This document shows positions 15,847 through 29,441 of a stretch of 32,111 nt of DNA, one piece after another; the first letter of the stretch is position 1; every line of letters starts with the position of its first letter. Location: assembly GCA_009873635.1 (NCBI GenBank), contig WAHY01000004.1, positions 1,844 through 33,954 of the forward strand, given 5' to 3'. A model generated the notes under the pieces. The model ran no database searches, was not told where the DNA came from, and saw only the letters and a program-made list of their open reading frames with translations. This DNA is from Nitrospinota bacterium (GTDB lineage Bacteria > Nitrospinota > Nitrospinia > Nitrospinales > VA-1). The translations under genes and the position numbers were made by a program.

Positions 15847-17409
15847 TCGGTTTTTATTTAGCTTGTGATCAATGCTGTCGATTAAGGCCTGCCAACTGGC
15901 TTCGATGATATTTTCAGAGACACCTACAGTTCCCCATTTTGAATGATGGTCGCCAGACTCTACCAGGACTCGCGTTTTTGCGCTTGTACCTTTTTTTTCA
16001 TCCAGGATACGAACCTTGTAATCGTAGAGGTTGACTTCTTCCAGTTCCGGGTAAAATTTCACCAAAGCTTTTTTGATGGCTTTATCCAGAGCATTGATGG
16101 GACCTGTTCCTTCAGCGGCCGAGACTTCCTGAACACCATTTACCCTTAACTTAACAGTGGCTTCAGAAATGGGCTCTTCATCTTCTTTGCGTTTTTCAAC
16201 GATGACACGGAAGCCTATAAATTCAAAAAAGACTTCTTTCTGCCCTAGCGCATCACGCATCATTAGTTCAAATGAAGCCTCTGCACCTTCAAACTGAAAG
16301 CCCAGGTTCTCTGACTCCTTAAGGGAGTTGAGGATTTTTGCAACCTTGGGATCTTTATCATCAACATCGATGCCGTATTCCCTGGCCTTATGAAGTACAT
16401 TACTTTTTCCTGAAAGGTCTGAAACCAGAATGCGCTGGTGGTTGCCAACTCTTTCAGGTTCGATGTGTTCATAGGTCAATGCGTTTTTGCGTACCGCACT
16501 TACGTGCACACCTCCCTTATGCGCAAAAGCACTTTTCCCTACAAACGGTTGCTGGTTCCAGTGTGCCCGGTTGGCCAGTTCATCTACAAAAGCGGAAACG
16601 TCTTTCAGGGTTTGCAATTGTTCATCGGTCATGCAGTCGATGCCCATTTTAATTTTAAGATTGGAAATAATAGAAACCAGATTAGCGTTTCCACAGCGCT
16701 CACCAATTCCATTGATAGTGCCCTGAACCTGCCCGGCCCCTGATTGAACAGCGGTGAGAGAGTTGGCGACCGCCACTTCCGAATCGTTATGGGCATGAAT
16801 CCCCATGTTGACAGATATGGACTTTTTAACATCATCGAAAATCGCGCGAACTTCATGTGGAAGTGTGCCGCCATTGGTATCGCAAAGGACAACCCAGTCG
16901 GCCCCTGCAGACTCTGCTTCCTTGATTGTCTTGAGGGCATATTCAGGATTATTTTTATAGCCATCAAAAAAATGTTCGCAATCAAAGAGAACTTCATCGC
17001 GATGTTTTTTCATATAGGCGATGCTTTCATAAATCATGCGAAGATTTTCATCAAGGTTGGTGCCCAGGGCATCTTGCACATGCAGGTCCCAGGTTTTCCC
17101 AAACAGGGTTACCACTTGGGTTTCTGTTTTTAAAAGAGCTTGCAGAACAGTATCGCTTTCCACAGTTTTTCCGGGATAGCGAGTGCTTCCAAAAGCAGTG
17201 ATCCGTGTTTGTGAAAAAGTAGCGCGGTTGGCTTTTTCAAAAAAATCGATATCCCTTGGATTCGATCCCGGCCATCCTCCTTCTACATAATGCACTCCCA
17301 GCTCGTCCAGTTTGTGGGCGATGCGGATTTTATCCTCAACGGTGAACGAAATTCCTTCCGCTTGGGATCCGTCTCTGAGCGTGGTGTCATAAATTTTTAC
17401 GGAACTCAT
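15844..17409 (-). CDS. cimA: (R)-citramalate synthase CimA
   Basis: Condenses pyruvate and acetyl-CoA to citramalate, the entry to 2-oxobutyrate and isoleucine without threonine deaminase. The 521 residues show the LeuA/HMGL TIM barrel, opening [18 protein letters not shown]. They also show [14 protein letters not shown] with the metal-binding His-x-His, [15 protein letters not shown], and a C-terminal LeuA-type allosteric domain ([22 protein letters not shown]). The FGSTRYPG region and the length match the CimA branch rather than isopropylmalate or homocitrate synthase. Its ATG overlaps the lysC stop as ATGA (17406-17409), so it is translationally coupled. It is the last gene of the minus-strand operon and meets glnE tail to tail. 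Confidence 0.95.
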
Positions 17410-18677
17410 TTTTTAGCAGTGCTCTTTTTTTTTGCTGTTTTCTTTTTGGTTTTTTTGTCTTCGAGTTCAAAAGCACCATGCAATGCAACAACAGCCTGTT
17501 TGGAATGTTTTTGCTGAATAATACAAGATACTTTTATTTCTGAAGTACTTATCATCAATATGTTAATTTTATGCGCGGACAGGGTTTTAAAAATTTGCGC
17601 CGCAACTCCAGAGTGGCTTCTCATGCCCGCACCGACAATTGAAACTTTAACAATTTTGGCATCCGCACTGACGTTGGCAGCTCTAATTTTTTTTGCCACT
17701 TTATTCATTATGACCATAGCTTCATCGAGTTCTTCCCGTTGTAATGTGAACGAAAGGTCGGTGTGCCCCTGTTCGCTGACATTCTGGATGATCATATCAA
17801 CAGAAATTGACGAGGCCGCCAATGGTTCAAAAATATTAGCTGCAATACCCGGCTGGTCTGGAACTTCCTTCAGGGTAATTTTTGCCTGGTTTTTGTCGCA
17901 CATGATTCCAGAAACAACCGGTTGTTCCATTTTTGGATCCTCCTCACAGATCAATGTTCCTTTGCCCTCTTCGGTAAACGATGATTTAACGAGCAGGGGC
18001 ATCTTGTATTTATGGGCAAATTCCACACAACGAATTTGCAGGACCTTGGCTCCCAGGCTGGCCATTTCAAGCATTTCATCATAAGATACCACATCCAGCT
18101 TTTTGGCCTGAGGTACGATTCTTGGGTCAGTGGTGTAAACGCCATCGACATCCGTATATATTTCGCATTTCCCGGCACCGAGTGCTACAGCAAGGGCCAC
18201 AGCAGTGGTGTCTGTTCCGCCTCGACCCAAAGTGGTCACATCGCCTTCCTCATTGATACCCTGGAACCCGGCGACCACGATCACATGATTTTTCTTCAAC
18301 ATTTTCAGGGCTCGCTTGGCATCAATGTTCTGTATGCGAGCCCGGGTGTGGGTGCTGTCTGTTTGCATACCGATCTGTCTCCCGGTCAGGGAAAGAGCTG
18401 GAATGCCCCTGGACTGCAGGGCAATAGTTAACAGGGCCGCTGAAATACGTTCTCCGGAAGACAAGAGCAGGTCTATTTCCCTGTTGGCCGGGCTTTTGGT
18501 CAGGCTCCTTGCCATTTTTAACAGCTTGTCGGTTTCTCCTGCCATTGCGGAAACGACAGCAACAATATCTGTTCCAGTTGCGCGGACTTTGGCGATGCGG
18601 TCCGCCACATGCTCAATGCGTTCCAAGGTGCCGACAGAGGTACCGCCATATTTTTGTACGATTAAAGATTTGTTCAT
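17406..18677 (-). CDS. lysC: Aspartate kinase with Lys-rich C-terminal tail
   Basis: Phosphorylates aspartate, the first step to lysine, methionine, threonine and diaminopimelate. The 423 residues start [14 protein letters not shown], with catalytic Lys9 and the ATP loop. The kinase domain continues with [21 protein letters not shown] and [14 protein letters not shown]. Two ACT domains follow (about 265-400; [21 protein letters not shown] and [19 protein letters not shown]) and should bind lysine and/or threonine. After the usual family end (ALHGAFELE) comes an extra tail of about 17 residues, ten of them Lys (residues 407-423), encoded by A-rich DNA with an A9 run. ATGA overlaps join it to both neighbours (18674-18677 and 17406-17409). 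Confidence 0.97.
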
Positions 18678-19867
18678 AGCTGATCAGTTAAAAAAGCATT
18701 TAATAGATCGGGAGCATTGTCGAAAAACTTCCCTGTTTCTAAAATTTGTTCATCGTATTGCCCCGTGTTCCCTGATGCAACGGGATAAACAAGATAAGGA
18801 ACCGGAGACCTTTCGTATTTCATGGACATTGCAGAACTTACATGATTAACCACCACCATCATTTTTATATTTTCCATCGTTTCCATTGCCTGAGCCAGGG
18901 GTTTTACGACTTTGGCATCGAAATCTTCGATCATTAAAATCTTATCGTCAATATCGCCTTTGAGTGACGCTTCCTCTCCCGCTGAAATATGCAAGAAAAC
19001 CACATCTTTGGTTTCCAGTTCCTTAAGGGTAGCGGTGACTTTGCCGGCGTAATCAGTGTCTGAAAAGCCTGTCGCACCTTTTACATCTATAACATCGATA
19101 CCAGTAAGTCTTCCAATTCCTTTAACCATCAGGGACGCGGTTATAATAGAAGCATTCTTATCATACCTCTCTTTAAAGGACGGCATGCCGGGCAATTCAC
19201 CGTTTCCCCAAAACCAAATGCTGTTAACCGGATCTTTTTTTTCAGCAACACGTTTTTTATTGAAGACATGATTGTGCAAAATAATTTGCGCTTGATTCAT
19301 GACAAAAATCAGGTCACGAGAAGAATCTCCTTCTGGCATGAATTGGCGAATGCCTTCACCAATAAGTTCGTTTGGTGTATATAACCTTTCCTGAATAGGT
19401 GGACTTTTAATAAACATCAGGTTGTGGTGTCCTCCACCCTTATGGAAGGTAACAGGAGCATCAATCACTTGCTCATTAAGTGCATTGATAAGTAGTCCTG
19501 AATCATCAGCTGAAAGATGTCCTCCAGTATAATCTTTCATGACCATATCGTCATGAGTGGGTTGCAGGGTTACTAAATCACAACAGAGTGCGGTTTCATC
19601 CTCTGCGGGATTTATTCCCAGGCCCATAGCAGTAAGCGGAGCATGACCTGAATTATATTGTTTGGGGTCAAGACCCAAAAGCCCCAGGCAGGAAACTTCA
19701 TTACCCGGATGCAGCTCATCAGGAATTGTTTGAACAGGTCCACAAGTTGCGTTTTTGGTCAGGGCATCCAGATTTGGGGTGTCGGCCAACTGCAACGGGG
19801 TTTTATTATCTTTTTCCGCGAAGGGCTTATCTGTCAGGCCCGCCACGATAATAACGAGGTATTTCAT
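18674..19867 (-). CDS. Archaeal-type (ApgM) phosphoglycerate mutase-like protein, active site degenerate
   Basis: The 397-residue protein clearly has the layout of cofactor-independent phosphoglycerate mutase of the ApgM/COG3635 type: KTPLQLADTPNLDAL, PGNEVSCLGLLGLDP, SGHAPLTAMGLGI, SPVPYLVYP. Nearly all catalytic positions of that alkaline-phosphatase-superfamily fold differ. The first metal Asp (DG motif) is Ala9. The nucleophile Ser (GSD) is Asn56. The Asp and His of the DEAGH motif are Glu298 and Leu302. The Asp of DHS is Asn341, although His342 remains. The later His before PVP is Tyr351. Intact relatives often sit beside threonine-pathway genes and have been suggested to replace homoserine kinase. 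Here it is first in the lysC-cimA operon (ATGA overlap). Ordinary mutase activity seems unlikely, and a regulatory or altered role is inference. Start ATG 19867. Confidence 0.85.
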   Translation of the reverse strand: MKYLVIIVAGLTDKPFAEKDNKTPLQLADTPNLDALTKNATCGPVQTIPDELHPGNEVSCLGLLGLDPKQYNSGHAPLTAMGLGINPAEDETALCCDLVTLQPTHDDMVMKDYTGGHLSADDSGLLINALNEQVIDAPVTFHKGGGHHNLMFIKSPPIQERLYTPNELIGEGIRQFMPEGDSSRDLIFVMNQAQIILHNHVFNKKRVAEKKDPVNSIWFWGNGELPGMPSFKERYDKNASIITASLMVKGIGRLTGIDVIDVKGATGFSDTDYAGKVTATLKELETKDVVFLHISAGEEASLKGDIDDKILMIEDFDAKVVKPLAQAMETMENIKMMVVVNHVSSAMSMKYERSPVPYLVYPVASGNTGQYDEQILETGKFFDNAPDLLNAFLTDQL

Positions 19868-20291: not shown

Positions 20292-21176
20292 ATGTATGAA
20301 GTGAACGAGATTTGCAAAGATGGCAAACCTCTACCTTTAACTACCGATGGGCATCTCCGGATAGTATTTATTGGTACAGGCTCAGCTTTTGCCAAGCGAC
20401 GGCGGCAATCTAACATACTGGTCATTCAAGGCAACCATCATATTTTGATTGATTGTGGCACCCAGGGGCCTCTTGCCCTTAATGATTTGGGATTAAGTGT
20501 TTTAGATGTGCGTTGTTATCATCCTACCCACAGTCATGCGGATCATATTGGTGGATTCGAGGAAGTGGCGTTGATGAACCGGTACACTCCAAATATTTCC
20601 AAACCTGACATGATTATTTTGCGGGACTATCAGGATATTTTATGGAGCAAAAGCCTTTCCGGGGGTTGTGAATATTGCGAGGCAAATCAAGGCAGGCCGC
20701 TACAACTGACAGATTTTTTCAACATACTTCGTCCCCAGAATATTGAAATTGATGGAAGAAAATTCTGGGCTTATAAACATGGCCCGATTGAATTGGTCAT
20801 AATGAGAACTCGACACTTTCCTGATACGGCAATAAGTGTGGACGAGTCGCAGTGGTGTTCTGGAGTTTTTATCAATCGTCGTGCCTGGATATCAGGCGAT
20901 ACTATGTTTGACTCCGACTACCCCATACGTTTTGCCAAGTCGGCAGAAGTAATGTTTCACGATACGCAACTATTTTTTGGCGGTGTCCATGCTTCTTACC
21001 AGGAGTTGATGACTTTGCCTGATGAGGTACGGAAAAAAATGTATCTTTATCATTATGGAGATAATTGGGACAACCCGGAAACCTGGGCCAGCGGATCTGA
21101 TAAATATACGGGTGATCCGATTACGGACGGGTTTTTAGGTTGGGCAGAACAACGCAAAGCATATGATTTTTTCTAA
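20292..21176 (+). CDS. Metallo-beta-lactamase-fold hydrolase
   Basis: Cytoplasmic metallohydrolase of unknown substrate, 294 residues, no signal peptide. It opens the fold with LRIVFIGTGSAFAKRRRQSN, similar to RNase Z-type and other tRNase/phosphodiesterase-like members. It has the full binuclear metal set: THSHADHIGG (His80, His82, Asp84, His85), RHFPDT, ISGDTMFD and a late YHYGDNW His. An unusual insert between the first and second metal motifs has a Cys pair (GGCEYCE, around residues 123-128). ATG 20292 has AAGGAG at good spacing. It is the first of five same-strand genes (DUF898, M48, GT39, hldD), 51 bases before the next. It is not a clear RNase Z by length or C-terminus, so no symbol is given. 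Confidence 0.88.
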   Translation: MYEVNEICKDGKPLPLTTDGHLRIVFIGTGSAFAKRRRQSNILVIQGNHHILIDCGTQGPLALNDLGLSVLDVRCYHPTHSHADHIGGFEEVALMNRYTPNISKPDMIILRDYQDILWSKSLSGGCEYCEANQGRPLQLTDFFNILRPQNIEIDGRKFWAYKHGPIELVIMRTRHFPDTAISVDESQWCSGVFINRRAWISGDTMFDSDYPIRFAKSAEVMFHDTQLFFGGVHASYQELMTLPDEVRKKMYLYHYGDNWDNPETWASGSDKYTGDPITDGFLGWAEQRKAYDFF

Positions 21177-21227
21177 TTTCTTCTTTTTAGGGGTTGCCAG
21201 TTTTTGATGCAGTTATAGGGATTCTTC

Positions 21228-22466
21228 ATGAGTTACCAAATTACCTTAAACACTTGGTCTGGAGCGAGTAAAAAAGAGGCCGCTGAAAAGCTTGCATCAG
21301 TGTTCCGGATGAACAACGAGAAGTCTATGGGTATTCTGGATAATTTATGTGAAGGGTTTCCCTGGCGGTTTGACCAATGTATTCCCGATCATCAGGCAGA
21401 TATGGCATCTACCTATCTCAGCGGTTTGGGTTTTGCCGTAGACATTAAACCTGTTGCAGGAGATATCGAGCCATTACCAGGACCCACTGTTACAGAAGAA
21501 GCCCCAGCAGAAGAGATTGCCCAATCCTACGGTGACGACTATAGCTTGAAGTTTCAGGGAGACGGCCGCACCCTTTTGAACATTAGCCTTGCTAATCTGA
21601 TCAAGACCGTATTCACTCTGGGTATCTACCGATTTTGGGCCAAAACCAATGTGCGCCAGTATATCTGGAGCCAAACATTGTTTGCCGGGGATCGTTTTTC
21701 CTATCATGGAACCGGTAAAGAATTACTCAGCGGGGCGTTTCGATTCGGTGGTATTCTTGTTTTATTGGGATTAATTAACGTCTATATTTTTTTTAATATT
21801 GGTCCTGCAGAAGGCGAAATATTTTCAGACCTTCTTTCACTGATTATTCTTTTTATGATACCTGCACTTTTGGTAGGTGCATGGAGATACCGGCTTTCCC
21901 GAACTGCCTGGAGAAATATCCGCTTTTCCTTCCGGGGGAAAAAGATGGATGCGTTTATGTTATATTTTTTGGGAGGAATTTTTTCCGTCTTGACGTTGGG
22001 TCTTTATTGGCCGTTTTTTAAAATGAAAAGCGAAAAATTCTGGCGCGAGAACTCATGGTTTGGAGATGTACAGTTTGGTTTTTCCGGTATAGGTAAAGAT
22101 TTTTTTAGAAAGTTTTTGTTTGCCATTATTCTCACACCTCTTACCGTTGGTTTTTATTTTTTCTGGTTTGCCGCAGACTTAAAGCGCTATTTATGGTCAC
22201 ACACTCATGTAGGGGGGGCGACTTTCAATTTTCCGATTAATGGAAAAGATTATATGAGATTAAAAGTGATTAACTTTTTTATTCTTATAGCTTCGTTTGG
22301 GCTGGGTTACCCTTGGGTAGTGGTACGTAACCAGAAATTTTTAACAGACAACCTGACTCTTGCCGGAAATATTGAATTAAATCATATCGTCCAGGAGATG
22401 AAAACCAGCGGAGCATTTGGCGAGGAAGCCCTGGACGCAATGGACGTTCCTATTGAAATTGGATAA
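21228..22466 (+). CDS. DUF898 (YjgN-like) multi-pass membrane protein with an extra N-terminal domain
   Basis: Inner-membrane protein of unknown function, 412 residues. Residues 1-75 form a small soluble alpha/beta domain (ASKKEAAEKLASVF, then FPWRFDQCIPDHQADMAS and YLSGLGFAVDI). Its pattern resembles the short helix-rich domain that precedes several bacterial membrane proteins and, loosely, the L7/L12 C-terminal fold. An acidic linker follows (about 80-105). The rest is DUF898, with two repeated units of the type LGIYRFWAKTNVRQYIWS and VGFYFFWFAADLKRYLWS, each followed by a short glycine-containing stretch and hydrophobic helices (about six in all). The pairing with an M48 peptidase immediately downstream is recurrent for this family and suggests a joint role in the membrane. 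ATG 21228 has AGGGA upstream. Confidence 0.87.
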   Translation: MSYQITLNTWSGASKKEAAEKLASVFRMNNEKSMGILDNLCEGFPWRFDQCIPDHQADMASTYLSGLGFAVDIKPVAGDIEPLPGPTVTEEAPAEEIAQSYGDDYSLKFQGDGRTLLNISLANLIKTVFTLGIYRFWAKTNVRQYIWSQTLFAGDRFSYHGTGKELLSGAFRFGGILVLLGLINVYIFFNIGPAEGEIFSDLLSLIILFMIPALLVGAWRYRLSRTAWRNIRFSFRGKKMDAFMLYFLGGIFSVLTLGLYWPFFKMKSEKFWRENSWFGDVQFGFSGIGKDFFRKFLFAIILTPLTVGFYFFWFAADLKRYLWSHTHVGGATFNFPINGKDYMRLKVINFFILIASFGLGYPWVVVRNQKFLTDNLTLAGNIELNHIVQEMKTSGAFGEEALDAMDVPIEIG

Positions 22467-22527
22467 CCGCATATCGTAAACTTTCCAGTTGTAAGGTTTT
22501 TGTTTAATCCCTTTCAAAGGAGCGGGC

Positions 22528-23658
22528 ATGAATGCCCGAAAGCTGCAATTTTCTGGTATCTTGTTTGATGGCAAAAGTGCCAGGAAACACACCGTTGAAA
22601 TTGAACTCACTCCACGCGAAATAATAATCAAACAGCAAGGTCTTTCACCCTTTCACTGGTCTTATTCCAATCTCAGATGGGCCGCAAGTGTTAACAGTCC
22701 TTTCCATTTAGAGCACGGAGATTTAGATAGTCCCTTCCAGGAAACTCTGGTGGTGGACGATCCTGTTTTTTATGAAAGCGTTTCCAGCATTGCTCCGAGT
22801 AACCTTTCTACCAATGGCAACCAGACAGAATTTAACTGGAAATTTTATGTTGCGGGAATATTAATTCTGATATTTTCCGCTTACATACTTATTAAAACAG
22901 TCCCCACATTTCTTGCTGATAGAATGGTTGAAAAAATCCCTGTCGAACTGGAAGTGATTTTAGGCCAGTCGATGCTAAATATGCTTCCGTTGTTACAGGA
23001 ACCCGACAAGAAAATTCTCATGGTATTGCAGGATACGGTTGACTTGCTCGAGCAGTCAGTCGAAGGTTACCAGCCTTATAACATGAAGGTTTATATTTTG
23101 CCGGGGAAAACAGTTAATGCGCTGGCCTTGCCCGGTGGCAGTATCGTTGTGTTTGAAGGATTGCTTCATAAAGCTGAGTCTGCTGAAGAGATAGCGGGAG
23201 TTCTTGCACATGAAATTCAGCATATTCTCCTCCGGCATTCTACCCGGGGTATTCTTAGGAACGTGGCACAAAGCATGCTGCTGTCTCTTTTCATTGGAGA
23301 TGTGAACGCAGTCATGGAAGGGGTAACCAATCTCGCGGGAGAACTGGAAACTCTGGGGTTCAGCCGTGAAATGGAAACTGAGGCCGACAAAAAAGGAATG
23401 GAATTAATTCTAAATGCCAATATTAATCCTTACGGTATGGTTCGAATGTTTGAAAAGATTTTACAAGATGAAGTCAAGAGTCTGCCCGGGAATAAAAGCA
23501 CGAAAAACGAAATGGAGCTTCTTTCTTATCTTTCCACCCACCCTTCAAGTCGTAGCAGGTTGAAAATGCTGGAGAAACAAATTGAGGGTCATGAAAACAG
23601 AACCTGGGAACCTCTTTTCCCCGAGTTAGACTGGAATGAAATAAAACCAGAAAATTAA
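22528..23658 (+). CDS. M48 family membrane metalloprotease
   Basis: Zinc protease of 376 residues. An N-terminal beta-rich soluble domain (1-105; the pattern SGILFDGKSARKHTVEIEL with FHWSYSNLRW is typical of M48 proteins paired with DUF898) is followed by one membrane helix (about 111-130). The catalytic domain is next. HEIQH (His228, Glu229, His232) gives two zinc ligands and the general base, and FSREMETEAD supplies the third ligand (Glu283 in ExxxD). STHPSSRSRLKML is the usual C-terminal M48 motif. It is complete and should be active. ATG 22528 has AAAGGAG at 7-8 bases. Its stop shares a base with the start of the next gene (TAATG). Likely role: processing or quality control of membrane or periplasmic proteins; the substrate is unknown. 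Confidence 0.92.
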   Translation: MNARKLQFSGILFDGKSARKHTVEIELTPREIIIKQQGLSPFHWSYSNLRWAASVNSPFHLEHGDLDSPFQETLVVDDPVFYESVSSIAPSNLSTNGNQTEFNWKFYVAGILILIFSAYILIKTVPTFLADRMVEKIPVELEVILGQSMLNMLPLLQEPDKKILMVLQDTVDLLEQSVEGYQPYNMKVYILPGKTVNALALPGGSIVVFEGLLHKAESAEEIAGVLAHEIQHILLRHSTRGILRNVAQSMLLSLFIGDVNAVMEGVTNLAGELETLGFSREMETEADKKGMELILNANINPYGMVRMFEKILQDEVKSLPGNKSTKNEMELLSYLSTHPSSRSRLKMLEKQIEGHENRTWEPLFPELDWNEIKPEN

Positions 23659-25691
23659 TGCCTGCTCCTAAACTTTCCACGACAGATAGTTTTCAAAGAC
23701 AAACCGTTCTGGGATTGTTAGCCATCCTTTTTATTTTTGCCGTGTTCAGATTGCCGGGGCTCGGAGTACCGCTTGCTTCAGATGAGCTTGCTACAGTCTC
23801 CCTCTGGGCACAAATGCCTTATCTAAAAATTCTTTCCAACTATCAATACCCCAACAACCATATTTTTCTAAGCCTTGTTCTAAGCTTTTTGCTCAAGGCA
23901 TTTGGGTTGAAGGAATGGCTATTACGAATGCCCTTGCTTGCATGTGGGCTTGCCAGCATTTATTCAGGTTACCTGCTGGGTAAGAAAGTTACGGGAAGTA
24001 ATAGAGTGGGACTATTCACTGCTTTTCTAATGACTATTTGTGAGAAGCATATTTTTTACTCTACAAATGCCCGAGGGTATATCGTGAACATGTTCTTGGC
24101 CTTATTGGCAGTAATTATTGTTCAAGATAGATTAAAGGGGATCACTTTTAAAATTAAGAAACTTTCGTATGTATTTAATCAAGGGCTGGTTTTTATCGGT
24201 TGGTCTTTGATTTGGATTATTGGGACCTGGACGGTTCCCACATTTTTATTTTTTGAAGTAACCATTGCTTTATTTCTGACGGCAATATTGTTGACGGGAA
24301 AACAATTTCAACCTTTGCGAAAAGAACATTTGTTAATTCCAGTTACTTCATGCCTGATTGGTGGATCAGGGTTTTATTTTCAATTTTACGTGCTGATAGA
24401 TTCAGCCATGTTGGCCGATGCGACTGCGCGAGCTGCAACAACAACTTTGCCCCTGTTTTTTCCAGCAATATTGAATGAATGGTTTAGCCCTTTTGAGCAG
24501 GCCGGTGTATTGTTTCTTTTTCTTGCGTTGCTGGGGGCAAGAAACCTGTTCCGAAATAATCAAATCATTGCAATGCTGATAAGCTGTGTTTGTTTGGGAC
24601 CTGTCTTTATCGGGATAGTGGGATATTTGTTGGGAATACTTCCTGGTATTCCGCACCCCAGGACGTATTATTACCTGCAACCTTTTGTCTTGATGCTTAC
24701 GGTGTCTGGCGTCCGGGAAATTGGAATGGGATTCCCATTAGCAATAAACAAAAAATTTAATGCGAAACAGAACCTGGCTATACCAGTTGTTATAGCAGTT
24801 ATTTTATTCGTAATTTCGTGTTTGAATTTCTTTCAACATATTTATCCCAAGCGCGTATCGCGGGATCCTTTGGATAAGGTTCAGGAATTTGTAGAAAAGT
24901 TAGAACCCAATGACCTGGTTCTGGTTTCGAAAACTATGCATGTAGGATTTTACCTGTATGGGGCTCGCGCTATGCGAGAAAGAGTCGAAAATATTCTTCA
25001 GGATGGGAAAATGGGAGAGGTTTATTTTTTAGGGTATAAGAAAAACAGGATTTCGATAAATCAGGAGATAGCAACAAAAGATAGTCACTTATTTAACTTT
25101 CCCGTGTTAACCCGTAATGCTAAAAAGAAAGGACCAGCCCTTCCTGAAAAGGCTTTAGAGGTTGCGGGGCATTTTGGCCCATTTGTATTTTATCAATTAA
25201 AAGAGGGTTGGTTGCAGCCCTTGGAGGGATGGGAGAAATTAGGTCTAAACCCCGCCATTTTTGGTGCAGGGCCGTTTGTATGGGAAAAATTCTTAAGCCC
25301 TTCAGGAACCAGACCCTTGATTCGATTTCGGGATTCTTTTACGGTTGCTATCGAAAACAAGAAACTTTTATCTAATGAGGCCCAGGGTTTGATTCTGAAC
25401 TTAGTGGAAGTTTCTGGATTCAAAAAGGATTTTTCTGCGGCTTTTGTGGGAGGAAACATGGATAGAAATAGTATAATTCTAGATCCCAGTTGGCTGCCTA
25501 ATGATTGGGTGATAGACCATCCCTACGGGGGTAATATATTTAATCGAAGTTGGAATCCTGCGATATTTGTTTCACAAGGAACAGGTAGTTTGTCTGTGAT
25601 GGATGTTAAGTTTAAAAGACATCCCCGACAAGGAGCATTCAGGAAATTTTTAAGTTATCGCATTAAAGAACCAGGAGTGGATAATAAATGA
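23658..25691 (+). CDS. GT39/ArnT-like polyprenyl-linked membrane glycosyltransferase
   Basis: Integral membrane protein of 677 residues. The first helix (about 17-33) is followed by the periplasmic loop SDELATVSLW, where Asp42-Glu43 match the acidic pair required in the PMT/ArnT (GT39, GT-C) superfamily. YPNNHIFLSLVLSFLLKAFG and STNARGYIVNMFLALLA are also typical. About ten hydrophobic helices extend to residue 395. A soluble C-terminal region of about 280 residues without recognised motifs follows. Such enzymes move a sugar from an undecaprenyl-phosphate donor to lipid A, protein or polysaccharide. The target is unknown, but the neighbours hldD and M48 suggest the cell envelope. It is coupled to M48 (TAATG) and to hldD (ATGA overlap). 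Confidence 0.82.
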   Translation: MPAPKLSTTDSFQRQTVLGLLAILFIFAVFRLPGLGVPLASDELATVSLWAQMPYLKILSNYQYPNNHIFLSLVLSFLLKAFGLKEWLLRMPLLACGLASIYSGYLLGKKVTGSNRVGLFTAFLMTICEKHIFYSTNARGYIVNMFLALLAVIIVQDRLKGITFKIKKLSYVFNQGLVFIGWSLIWIIGTWTVPTFLFFEVTIALFLTAILLTGKQFQPLRKEHLLIPVTSCLIGGSGFYFQFYVLIDSAMLADATARAATTTLPLFFPAILNEWFSPFEQAGVLFLFLALLGARNLFRNNQIIAMLISCVCLGPVFIGIVGYLLGILPGIPHPRTYYYLQPFVLMLTVSGVREIGMGFPLAINKKFNAKQNLAIPVVIAVILFVISCLNFFQHIYPKRVSRDPLDKVQEFVEKLEPNDLVLVSKTMHVGFYLYGARAMRERVENILQDGKMGEVYFLGYKKNRISINQEIATKDSHLFNFPVLTRNAKKKGPALPEKALEVAGHFGPFVFYQLKEGWLQPLEGWEKLGLNPAIFGAGPFVWEKFLSPSGTRPLIRFRDSFTVAIENKKLLSNEAQGLILNLVEVSGFKKDFSAAFVGGNMDRNSIILDPSWLPNDWVIDHPYGGNIFNRSWNPAIFVSQGTGSLSVMDVKFKRHPRQGAFRKFLSYRIKEPGVDNK

Positions 25692-26650
25692 TAATTGTTA
25701 CTGGAGGCGCGGGGTTTATAGGCAGTGCTCTGGTGCATGGGCTGAACCAGAAAGGGATTGATGATATCTGGCTGGTGGATGATGTGGATCACCCGGAAAA
25801 GCAGAAGAATCTTGATAATCTTAATTATTCCAGATGGGTGGGTAAAGACGATTTTTTAAAGGAGGTGCCGGGGATCAAGGGGTGTTCTGCTATCCTGCAT
25901 ATGGGGGCATGTTCATCCACTACTGAAACTAATGAAGCCTACCTGCGTGAAAATAATTTCGAGTACACGCAATCTCTGGCCAAGTTCTGCATGGAAAAGG
26001 ACGTTCGTTTTATATACGCCTCGAGTGCTGCAACTTATGGCGCAGGTGAAAACGGTTACTCCGATGATGAATCATATTTGGAAAACCTTGTCCCCCTCAA
26101 TTTATACGGTGCCAGCAAACAGTGGTTTGACTTGTGGGCCAAAAAAGTGGGTGCCTTAACGACCATTGTGGGATTGAAATACTTTAATGTGTTTGGTCCA
26201 AATGAATATCATAAAGGCGACATGCAAAGTATGGTTCGTAAGGGATTTATGCAGATACGTGATTCGAGAAAATTAAATTTGTTCAAGTCTTATAAGCCCG
26301 AATATGGCGATGGAGGTCAGGAGAGAGACTTTTTATATGTCCGTGATGCGGTAGCAATGACCCTGTTTTTTCTGGAACATAAGGATATTGGTGGAATATT
26401 TAATGTGGGTTCAGGCAAGGCGAGAAACTGGAATGACCTCGCCTCATCGGTTTTTCTTGCGATGAATCAAGAAGTGAATATTAATTATATTGATATGCCT
26501 GAATCGATCAGGGATCAATATCAATACCACACTTGTGCAGAAATGGAAAAAATTCGGTCAGCGGGCTATGTGGAGTCGATAACTTCGTTAGAGGAGGGAA
26601 TTTCAGATTATGTTAAAAACTTCCTTATTCCCGATAAGCACCTGGCGTGA
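25688..26650 (+). CDS. hldD: ADP-L-glycero-D-manno-heptose 6-epimerase HldD
   Basis: Last step in making ADP-L-glycero-D-manno-heptose for the LPS inner core. The 320-residue SDR epimerase opens IIVTGGAGFIGSALVHGL (NAD(P) binding). It has HMGACSSTTETN, ASSAATYG, the catalytic YGASK (Tyr-x-x-x-Lys), KYFNVFGPNEYHKGDM and QERDFLYVRDAV, all specific for HldD rather than GalE. Length is typical (about 310-330). The start overlaps the GT39 stop as ATGA (25688-25691). Its partners gmhA and hldE lie immediately downstream on the opposite strand, 22 bases away, so the heptose set is split between two convergent operons. Confidence 0.96.
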   Translation: MIIVTGGAGFIGSALVHGLNQKGIDDIWLVDDVDHPEKQKNLDNLNYSRWVGKDDFLKEVPGIKGCSAILHMGACSSTTETNEAYLRENNFEYTQSLAKFCMEKDVRFIYASSAATYGAGENGYSDDESYLENLVPLNLYGASKQWFDLWAKKVGALTTIVGLKYFNVFGPNEYHKGDMQSMVRKGFMQIRDSRKLNLFKSYKPEYGDGGQERDFLYVRDAVAMTLFFLEHKDIGGIFNVGSGKARNWNDLASSVFLAMNQEVNINYIDMPESIRDQYQYHTCAEMEKIRSAGYVESITSLEEGISDYVKNFLIPDKHLA

Positions 26651-26672: not shown

Positions 26673-28142
26673 TCAACTGGCTTTATGTTTTTCCAAAATT
26701 TGTTCCAGGGTCCCTGTGGTTGAATGCCCTTTAACTATAGGAATGAGTTCGACTTTTGCTCCATAACCTTCAACGATTTCCCGACCGACCACTTCATCGA
26801 TTTTATAATCGTCTCCTTTTACCAGAATATCCGGTCTGATTTCCCGGATGAGTTTTTCCGGAGTGGTTTCATTAAACATGGTTATGTAATCTATATATTT
26901 CAAAGCCGAAAGAATATTTGCACGTTCCCTTTCATTTTTAATAGGTCGATTTTCCCCTTTTAATTTTTTAACGGATTGATCGGTATTTAGTCCCACTACA
27001 AGGATATCCCCTAGAGATTTTGCTTTTTGCAGGAACTCAATATGTCCTCCGTGAATAAGATCGAAGCAACCGTTAGTGAATACAACCTTTTTATCTGTGC
27101 TCTTCGCCATGCTGATTATTTTTTTCAGTTCTTCAAGACCCAGGACAGTATGAGAAGTTCGTAACATTTCCTCTTGCAGAAACTCATTAATCTCTTCAAG
27201 GGTTACGACAGCAGTTCCCACTTTGCCGACAACAACACTTGCAGCCATATTTGAAAGCCATGCTGCTTCCTGGTAATCGAAACCTACAAACATTGCCATG
27301 CTAAAAACACTGATGACAGTGTCTCCCGCTCCGGTTACGTCAAAGACTTCTTTGGCTACAGTAGGAATTGATATAAGTTTTTCTTTGGATTTATATAATG
27401 ACATCCCATCTTTACCCTGTGTGATGAGGATAGCCTGTGCTTTTGTCAAATTTAACAGATATTCGGCGGCGCGACCCAGATCTTCCTTGTCTTTGATCTT
27501 AATGGGAACCGAGCTTGCAACCTCCCTCAAGTTTGGGGTGATAACAGTGGCACCTTTATAAAGTGAAAAATCCGAGTTTTTGGGATCGACAATAACAGCC
27601 TTTTCTGATTTCTGGGCTTTGCGCATAACAGCCTTGATAACTTTTTCCGTCAGAATACCTTTGTGATAATCAGAACAGATGACCCCATCCATTGTTGGAA
27701 TAACCTGGTTAATATATTGGATTAATTTTTTTTCTGTTTCTTCTGTGATAGGCCGGTTATCTTCTTTGTCGACACGTAGAATCTGCTGGTTGTGGGCGAT
27801 TATTCTAATCTTGGTAGTTGTTGGGCGATGAACAAACCGGAAAATCCCTTCCGTTTGAATAGACCGGTCATGGATGGTTTTTAAAAGTTTGTCACCTTTT
27901 TCGTCCTGTCCGATGGCACCGCATAGATGGACTTCGCAACCAAGCCCAACAAGGTTGTTAGCAACATTGGCTGCTCCTCCCAGGGCAAGATTTTCGGAGC
28001 GTGTTTCCAGAATGGGAACGGGTGCTTCTGGAGAGATTCGACTCACACCTCCCCAAATATATTCATCAAGAATCAAGTCGCCGATAACAAGGATTTTGGG
28101 CCGTTCATCACTGCTGAAAAAATATTTAAACTTTTCTTTCAT
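26673..28142 (-). CDS. hldE: Bifunctional heptose 7-phosphate kinase/heptose 1-phosphate adenylyltransferase HldE
   Basis: Carries out the kinase and nucleotidyl-transfer steps from D-glycero-beta-D-manno-heptose 7-phosphate to the ADP-heptose precursor. The 489 residues contain a PfkB-type kinase domain (1 to about 325; ILVIGDLILDEYIWGGVSRI, LGGAANVANNLVGLG, and DVTGAGDTVISVF with the catalytic Asp). A cytidylyltransferase-like domain follows (about 350-489; VFTNGCFDLIHGGHIEFLQ with the HxGH motif, and VKGDDY). Both halves are complete and fused as in E. coli. Its ATG directly abuts the gmhA stop (no bases between). The GmhB phosphatase needed between the two activities is not in the window. 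Confidence 0.97.
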   Translation of the reverse strand: MKEKFKYFFSSDERPKILVIGDLILDEYIWGGVSRISPEAPVPILETRSENLALGGAANVANNLVGLGCEVHLCGAIGQDEKGDKLLKTIHDRSIQTEGIFRFVHRPTTTKIRIIAHNQQILRVDKEDNRPITEETEKKLIQYINQVIPTMDGVICSDYHKGILTEKVIKAVMRKAQKSEKAVIVDPKNSDFSLYKGATVITPNLREVASSVPIKIKDKEDLGRAAEYLLNLTKAQAILITQGKDGMSLYKSKEKLISIPTVAKEVFDVTGAGDTVISVFSMAMFVGFDYQEAAWLSNMAASVVVGKVGTAVVTLEEINEFLQEEMLRTSHTVLGLEELKKIISMAKSTDKKVVFTNGCFDLIHGGHIEFLQKAKSLGDILVVGLNTDQSVKKLKGENRPIKNERERANILSALKYIDYITMFNETTPEKLIREIRPDILVKGDDYKIDEVVGREIVEGYGAKVELIPIVKGHSTTGTLEQILEKHKAS

Positions 28143-28703
28143 TTACAAGCCTTCTTCAATAAGTTCGCAAATAATATGTCCGATAGTTATATGCACTTCC
28201 TGAATTCTAGCAGTGTCATTGGAAGGAACAACAATTGATAAGTTTGCGACCTCCTTTATTTTACCCCCATTGTTACCCAGCAGTCCAATAGTCTCTGCAC
28301 CTATTGAATTAGCTTTTTCCAGAGCTCTCACAACATTTTTCGAATTACCGCTTGTGCTAATACCAACCACCGCATCATTTTCCCGACCCAAAGCTTCGAA
28401 TTGCCTTGCAAAAATGGTTTCAAATCCATAATCATTACCCAAGGCGGTTAGCGAAGAGGTGTCTACAGTTAATGCGATAGCTGGAATGGCCTGGCGTTCT
28501 TTTTTGAATCTACCCACAAGTTCAGCGGCTATGTGTTGTGAATCAGCGGCACTCCCCCCATTACCCATTAAAATAAGTTTTCCACCCTTTTTAAGGCGGG
28601 CATTTATTCGGTTGGCGGCTTCAAGAATGTCTCCTGAAAGAGTGTCGGCGACCTTCTTTTTTAATTCTGCGCTGGTATAAAGGAAATCCCTAACTCGTTG
28701 CAT
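28143..28703 (-). CDS. gmhA: Phosphoheptose isomerase GmhA
   Basis: Turns sedoheptulose 7-phosphate into D-glycero-D-manno-heptose 7-phosphate, the first committed step to LPS core heptose. The 186-residue SIS-domain protein has GNGGSAADSQHIAAELVGRF (the His and Glu of SQHIAAE are zinc ligands), GISTSGNSKNVVRALE, and the C-terminal RIQEVHITIGHIICELIE with the matching Gln and His. Length is typical. ATG 28703 has a good GAGGAG Shine-Dalgarno. It feeds hldE directly and is downstream of the broken radC; the upstream gap is 55 bases. Confidence 0.96.
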   Translation of the reverse strand: MQRVRDFLYTSAELKKKVADTLSGDILEAANRINARLKKGGKLILMGNGGSAADSQHIAAELVGRFKKERQAIPAIALTVDTSSLTALGNDYGFETIFARQFEALGRENDAVVGISTSGNSKNVVRALEKANSIGAETIGLLGNNGGKIKEVANLSIVVPSNDTARIQEVHITIGHIICELIEEGL

Positions 28704-28758: not shown

Positions 28759-29441
28759 CTACAGCAAGCCTTCATCAGCAAAACTAAAAAACCCGCTTCC
28801 TGCAATAATAATGTGGTCGATCATATGGATACCTACAATCTTTCCAGTCTGGTTTAGACGATGAGTGATCTCAAAATCCTTTTGGCTTGGAGAAGGGTCC
28901 CCGCTTGGGTGATTGTGAAGCAAGGCAAATGAAGCTGCGGACTCACGAATAGCCGGAATCATTACTTCTCTTGGGTGGACAATGCTGGCGTTTAAGCTTC
29001 CTTCAGATACGGTCAAATCCTTTATGAGTTGTAATTTATTATCCAGCAAAACGATTTTTACAATTTCTTTTTTCAGGTTTCTCATAAACGGCGCAAATTA
29101 CGTTACCAACGCCTGGCTGGATTTCAATTCGGTCTTTAAGCTTGCTGATTTAGAGGACATTCGCTTTCCAACCTCAAGCGCTGCTTTGGCAGAGCCTATT
29201 CCTTTTACCTGGCATATTTCATTTACTGTTGCCTGATCTATGTTTTCCAGGCTGCCAAATACCTTGAGTAAATCTCTACTTAAATCCACCGCATTTTTTT
29301 TGATCGCCGATCTCCAGAGCCAATGAGGATACCCAATAGATGTGCGTCAGATAATGAATTGCTTCCGTATCTTATCAGTCTTTCACGCGGGCGCTCGTCT
29401 TCCGGCCAGTATTTTATGGCAGATTTGTTTTTTCCCGTCAT
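28759..29441 (-). pseudogene. radC: radC pseudogene (JAB/MPN domain protein, frameshift plus nonsense)
   Basis: Three pieces in order make one RadC. From ATG 29441 the N-terminal part reads IKYWPEDERPRERLIRYG and DAHLLGILIGSG. An A8 run on the minus strand (29294-29301) then throws the frame into a stop at 29280-29282. One more A would continue into KNAVDLSRDLLKVFG and the helix-hairpin-helix VKGIGSAKAALEVGKRM (29289 to 29101). This frame ends in TAA (29098-29100) after SSQALVT. The same frame resumes at once with FAPFMRNLKKE and the full JAMM metal domain (HNHPSGDPSPSQKD) to 28759. The TAA falls where relatives usually have an aromatic residue, so a Tyr codon to TAA change fits. Two independent lesions argue against sequencing error or recoding. 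An AGGA Shine-Dalgarno still precedes ATG 29441. Confidence 0.85.

Follow-up and report, generated by a model that had tools for sequence, protein, structure and literature searches.

M48 metallopeptidases are recognized by an HExxH motif and a downstream glutamate that serves as a zinc ligand. The known members closest to the protein studied here are of the BepA and LoiP class; enzymes of the BepA type act on LptD, according to one report (PMC8423444). DUF898 proteins, which share the PF05987 membrane core with its repeated F-x-G ... TLGxY units, include E. coli YjgN. A literature search returned almost nothing on this family and nothing on a DUF898-M48 pair. One paper places a 101-amino-acid (aa) DUF898 protein in a biofilm screen, and another gives the name 'DUF898' to the membrane domain of PuuD, a urate oxidase. 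We take the latter name to be DUF989 with its digits swapped; should the name 'DUF898' be correct after all, the picture of DUF898 would change. Here we analyse 32,111 nucleotides from a Nitrospinota bacterium (GenBank assembly GCA_009873635.1, contig WAHY01000004.1, positions 1,844 to 33,954, forward strand), called the window throughout, in which an M48 gene follows a DUF898 gene within a block of five.

The block encodes, in order, a metallo-beta-lactamase-fold (MBL) hydrolase, the DUF898 protein, the M48 protease, a probable glycosyltransferase (GT) and the heptose epimerase HldD. An earlier reading of this DNA, the original prediction, suggested that the block may connect a membrane protease with lipopolysaccharide (LPS) or surface-glycan modification. 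We report that the DUF898-M48 pair recurs across phyla, and that its heptose-gene surroundings are specific to Nitrospinota. The pair joins a known protease family to an uncharacterised, conserved membrane partner. Whether the two genes together make up a membrane proteolysis unit, in which an M48 quality-control protease works with a dedicated DUF898 partner, we regard as evenly balanced.

The DUF898-M48 pair across bacteria

We surveyed the best 80 of 464 confirmed relatives: 36 loci from Nitrospinota (L073-L108) and 44 from elsewhere, whose labels include Methylomirabilota/NC10, Rokubacteria, Deltaproteobacteria, Acidobacteria, Nitrospirae, Latescibacteria, Gemmatimonadetes and one 'Proteobacteria'. 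Outside Nitrospinota, all 44 loci have an M48 gene downstream of DUF898 in the same orientation, with a median gap of 10 bp. The M48 match scores at least 100 bits in 42 of these (L125 has 77, L135 has 54). Within Nitrospinota it follows in 35 of 36; the exception, L100, stops at a contig end, and the M48 of L094 is a 123-bit fragment. A further survey covered the phylum of genome G092, where 53 of 296 genomes contain a DUF898 match, many of them one repeat long. M48 adjoins DUF898 in 22 of the 30 best loci there. The original prediction was right to call the pair recurrent.

Nothing else in the block travels so far. MBL, hldD and GT genes of these kinds are found in none of the 44 loci, several of which are short enough that distant neighbours could be missed. 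Clustering of the same loci yields no third family shared across the set: DUF898 appears in 44, M48 in 43, and the next largest cluster spans six loci from apparently closely related genomes.

Within the order, presence and absence can be read from search results over 64 genomes (G000-G063, G000 being the source genome), many of which are incomplete metagenome-assembled genomes (MAGs). Both genes are found in 39 and neither in 17; seven have the DUF898 core only and one has only this type of M48, the boundary of the type being a drop from 344 to 147 bits between it and the next. The seven are G010, G016 (with an M48 fragment), G029 and G060 (contig ends), G046, G049 and G059. The single reverse case, G043, lies at a contig end.

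Two of the seven, G049 and G046 (loci L070 and L072), belong to genus g10, in which M48 has been lost and a strongly diverged DUF898 is kept beside hldD. Identity of their DUF898 to that of the window is 35 and 32%, versus 40-47% in L067, L068, L069 and L071 (g14), which belong to the same family and keep M48. Identity of the MBL protein is nearly equal where measured, 73-75% in g10 versus 74-76% in the M48-keeping loci.

Predicted architecture of the two proteins

The M48 protein belongs to its family by a wide margin, with 91.4 bits against PF01435 (curated cut-off 20.3), and its N-terminus matches DUF7092 (PF23368) with 26 bits. H228, E229 and H232 of its HEIQH motif, together with E283, are invariant in 23 sequences. 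The nearest solved relatives are 3c37 (E 1.1e-45) and BepA, 6sar (E 6.7e-20). The likeness to BepA and LoiP lies in the catalytic domain, with its HExxH motif and downstream glutamate; it does not extend to the equivalogs, for the protein scores 70.2 bits against that of BepA (NF052400, NCBIfam; cut-off 570) and 60 bits against that of LoiP (cut-off 365). Unlike either, it has an additional DUF7092-like N-terminal domain, a transmembrane helix and an adjoining DUF898 gene. The side preceding its single hydrophobic helix is the more positive one in 23 of 23 sequences. By the positive-inside rule the helix would have its N-terminus inside, so the protease domain should face the periplasm and the N-terminal domain the cytoplasm.

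The DUF898 protein scores 251.5 bits against PF05987 (curated cut-off 28), and its closest named relatives, at 71-81% identity, come from Nitrospina and from Nitrospinaceae/Nitrospinota MAGs. It differs from E. coli YjgN in having both an M48 neighbour and an extra N-terminal domain. This domain, residues 1-77, has no Pfam match. In a full-length model (pLDDT 83 overall, about 84 over the domain) it adopts the order beta-alpha-alpha-beta-alpha-beta. Foldseek with that model gave a best E of 0.07, below significance, with the matches falling in the N-terminal domain. VIA with the domain ranks mitochondrial L7/L12 (6vlz_TC, Z 9.8), ClpS (9ayo_B, 9.4) and E. coli L7/L12 (1ctf, 9.1) at the top, with root-mean-square deviations of 1.8-2.5 over 68-76 residues and 4-16% identity; PBP3 is also returned, near Z 7. 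As modelled, the domain thus resembles ClpS and the L7/L12 C-terminal domain in fold. Fold is all that was compared, identity to ClpS chains being 4-14%, and unlike those proteins the domain is fused to a membrane protein.

The fusion is not fixed. In family f2 the same domain stands alone (108-112 aa; 165 aa in L066 and L103) directly upstream of DUF898. Elsewhere in the order it is joined to DUF945, GAF or DUF4234-like proteins (L207, L208-L211, L212-L214, L215-L217). These fusions and the copies that stand alone upstream of DUF898 (L066-L072) mark it as a module that moves around within the order; the three examples scanned had no Pfam match. In 22 of 35 sequences from the other named groups its place is taken by at least two CxxC motifs, and in the phylum of G092 by such motifs in 0 of 16.

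Because the N-terminal domain filled the full-length fold search, the membrane core (residues 103-395) was folded alone, with 67 sequences. The model is confident (pLDDT 96.3, pTM 0.89) and contains five units, each a strand, two helices and a beta-hairpin. The helices of unit 2 are long, at 28 and 32 residues. Those of the other units are short, at 17 and 14-15 residues, and in every short unit the second one is polar. The short units may be re-entrant hairpins on the cytoplasmic side. Searches with the core returned no match in the PDB (Foldseek reached E 5.0 at best, with probabilities no higher than 0.05) or in a viral library (best E 2.5), and VIA against 45 chains reached a Z of only 2.6; these searches cover the PDB and the viral library and do not prove a new fold. 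A sequence search among solved structures found no relative up to E 10. In the phylum of G092 many DUF898 matches are one repeat long and lie in open reading frames (ORFs) of about 105-150 codons, which suggests that one unit can occur by itself.

A variable slot in Nitrospinota

The spacing of the five genes was read in the sequence (Table 1). MBL and DUF898 are 51 bp apart and DUF898 and M48 61 bp; M48 overlaps GT by 1 bp (TAATG) and GT overlaps hldD by 4 bp (ATGA), as first described. An apgM-like gene and lysC flank the block on the left, and hldE-gmhA on the right.

Table 1. Features of the window discussed in the text
Feature	Position in window	Strand	Support
MBL-fold hydrolase, Apyc1 / class II phosphodiesterase-like, 294 aa	20292-21176	+	PF23023
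DUF898 membrane protein, 412 aa	21228-22466	+	PF05987
N-terminal domain of DUF898 protein, residues 1-77, ClpS / L7-L12-CTD-like fold (predicted)	21228-21458	+	model + VIA
M48 metallopeptidase, DUF7092-like N-terminal domain, one transmembrane helix, 376 aa	22528-23658	+	PF01435, PF23368
Probable GT-C-type glycosyltransferase, 677 aa, optional member	23658-25691	+	borderline PMT_2 in homologues
hldD, ADP-glyceromanno-heptose 6-epimerase, 320 aa	25688-26650	+	TIGR02197
hldE + gmhA, convergent, rest of ADP-heptose pathway	26673-28703	-	TIGR02198/TIGR02199, TIGR00441, above cut-offs

The original prediction staked itself on this order being kept at least in near relatives. It is kept, and the prediction survives on that count: all five genes appear intact in six other named loci (L074, L076, L079, L080, L082 and L085), and L078 has all five with a stop inside DUF898. 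Across the 36 Nitrospinota loci, MBL lies upstream of DUF898 in 30 and hldD downstream on the same strand in 29. The seven without hldD comprise five at or near a contig end (L075, L084, L089, L100, L106) and two, L094 and L099, that lack it at that place. That MBL-DUF898-M48-hldD keeps its arrangement across the family and the order in the face of changing outer flanks (L059, L069 and L071 versus L034) is more than chance would give.

The GT is an optional member of the cluster. It looks intact in 7 of the 36 named loci (the six above and L078); pieces of it remain in five more, one of them cut by a contig end, and its matches in G033, G002, G013 and G011 contain stops. More generally, the interval between apgM and hldD behaves as a slot. 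It holds MBL-DUF898-M48-GT in the window and its close relatives, and MBL-DUF898-M48 elsewhere. In G042, G034 and G047 it holds MBL and GT without DUF898 or M48, as it does in G044, where GT is split, and in G054, where the locus is cut. MBL is alone in G045 and accompanied by a 60-codon ORF in G040, and the slot is empty in G004, G023 and G041. Two genomes of family f4 (G050, G052) have DUF898-M48-hldD, and a search of each whole genome found no MBL of this type. MBL, GT and the DUF898-M48 pair thus come and go separately, DUF898 and M48 together. The cluster is layered: DUF898-M48 is the old core, and MBL and hldD frame it in Nitrospinota only. We considered the GT a late insertion and rejected the idea because g7 and another family of the order have MBL-GT-hldD without DUF898 and M48; the pattern fits loss and decay of the GT as well.

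In G012 (L205:5765-11648; the contig of L081, Nitrospina sp. LS_NOB), the slot contains an MBL remnant of 130 aa along with DUF898 and M48, and the HsdR, HsdS and HsdM genes of a type I restriction system lie between M48 and hldD.

The hldD product scores 374.6 bits against TIGR02197 (equivalog cut-off 274.6) and is the single match in its own genome at E <= 1e-40. The MBL protein belongs to the Apyc1 family PF23023 (91.1 bits, curated cut-off 50); its closest solved chains are 7t28 (E 1.2e-39), 7u2r and 7u2s, and the metal-site residues H80, H82, D84, H85, H175, D203 and H254 are invariant in 19 sequences. It would appear, from the family match and the conserved metal ligands, to resemble the class II phosphodiesterases Apyc1 and YhfI, from which it differs in being chromosomal and vertically kept in Nitrospinota. 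It is the most conserved gene of the block, at 69-91% identity in alignment A3.

The label 'GT39-like' given to the GT is weak. The window protein matches nothing in Pfam up to E 1 and does not reach the PMT_2 cut-off; what stands behind the label are PMT_2 matches in relatives, in three of the nine rows of alignment A4 (E 1.7e-5 at best) and in a more distant homologue, L189 (27.0 bits, cut-off 26.1). GT-C enzymes have as their hallmark an acidic pair in the first extracytoplasmic loop. A candidate for this pair, D42 and E43, is invariant in nine sequences. A GT-C-type glycosyltransferase is the probable assignment. Among solved structures the protein has only two weak matches, to TarM (E 0.007, about 50 residues); these were not used, TarM not being a GT-C enzyme.

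Outside the block, the apgM-like gene overlaps lysC by 4 bp (window 17406-19867) and scores 342.7 bits against the 'proposed homoserine kinase' model TIGR02535, under its cut-off of 446.3. The radC ORF (window 28759-29085) encodes 108 aa, the C-terminal part only, whereas the gene at the same place in relatives mostly encodes 232 aa. A broken gene, or an error in the sequence, is the probable explanation.

A proposed membrane proteolysis unit and its alternatives

What might the two proteins do together? A pairing that spans phyla, losses that run in parallel, an active site kept intact and the topology predicted for M48 together favour a membrane proteolysis unit as the best reading, and since the nearest characterised M48 relatives are of the BepA type, quality control of envelope proteins is the likeliest process. 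M48 would be a zinc protease anchored in the inner membrane, facing the periplasm with a cytoplasmic N-terminal domain. DUF898 would be a multi-helix membrane partner dedicated to it, in physical complex with it, and most likely a scaffold or presenter that holds substrates or offers them to the protease. The cytoplasmic domain of DUF898 would be ClpS/L7-L12-like in Nitrospinota and a zinc ribbon in many other phyla. In Nitrospinota the pair sits between a phosphodiesterase-like MBL gene and hldD, in a slot that takes other genes too, and would perform BepA/LoiP-like quality control while being transcribed together with the heptose gene. A bolder form of the idea, in which DUF898 is a membrane fold without solved relatives that presents substrates to M48 across phyla, through exchangeable recognition domains that feed or regulate the protease, we offer tentatively and think it more apt to fail than to hold.

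Several observations weigh against the proteolysis unit. The pairing is not universal: 8 of the 30 best loci in the phylum of G092 have no M48 neighbour (at least one is cut by a contig end and one is broken), and in E. coli K-12 the neighbours of yjgN are yjgM and valS, with no M48 gene in the 14 kb inspected. In g10, hldD identity to the window is also lower, 59-60% versus 63-64% in the M48-keeping loci, so the faster change of DUF898 there may partly reflect the lineage. A promoter scan found fewer promoter-like sites than in shuffled sequence, which neither supports nor denies a single transcript, and terminator-like sites were near chance (10 versus 7.5 +- 3.4 in shuffles).

The strongest competitor, which we consider possible though doubtful, is conserved synteny without shared function. 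DUF898-M48 would be self-contained, and MBL, GT and hldD would simply share the slot between apgM and the heptose genes. The independent variation of the slot, which can hold MBL and GT, MBL alone, restriction genes or nothing, speaks for this, as does the pair's existence without MBL or hldD in every locus outside Nitrospinota; it is harder to square with genes that overlap or lie close together and with an MBL-DUF898-M48-hldD order that outlasts changes of both outer flanks. The idea of an LPS or surface-glycan module, with the protease regulating or processing the GT or LPS assembly, draws on the overlapping reading frames of M48, GT and hldD, on the adjoining hldE and gmhA and on the action of BepA-type proteases on LptD noted above. 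We think it improbable. Many relatives have a broken GT or none, and others carry one without DUF898 or M48, so the M48-GT coupling is not supported as the functional link. Since hldD, MBL and GT of these kinds were found in none of the 44 loci outside Nitrospinota, the proposed connection with glycans rests on a position beside hldD in one phylum. That adjacency is real; the link built on it is not supported as stated.

Least probable is a nucleotide-signal or anti-phage slot, in which the MBL protein would hydrolyse a cyclic nucleotide and the slot would gather defence-related or surface-changing genes. The match of MBL to the Apyc1 family and the restriction genes of G012 are what this idea would explain. 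Those restriction genes occur in a single relative, PADLOC has no match for MBL, DUF898, M48 or GT, and the high conservation of MBL is atypical for a defence gene. No class III cyclase (PF00211) was found in the source genome (54 contigs, 2.62 Mb), other cyclase classes not being searched.

Returning to the membrane proteolysis unit, its consequences reach beyond this locus. The heptose-gene context that gave rise to the LPS-module idea is specific to Nitrospinota, and the idea should be corrected accordingly. If the pair is one machine, it would open a first way into DUF898, which occurs in several phyla as well as in E. coli, and it would represent a new layout for membrane proteolysis: a periplasm-facing M48 protease together with a dedicated membrane partner whose cytoplasmic domain varies from lineage to lineage.

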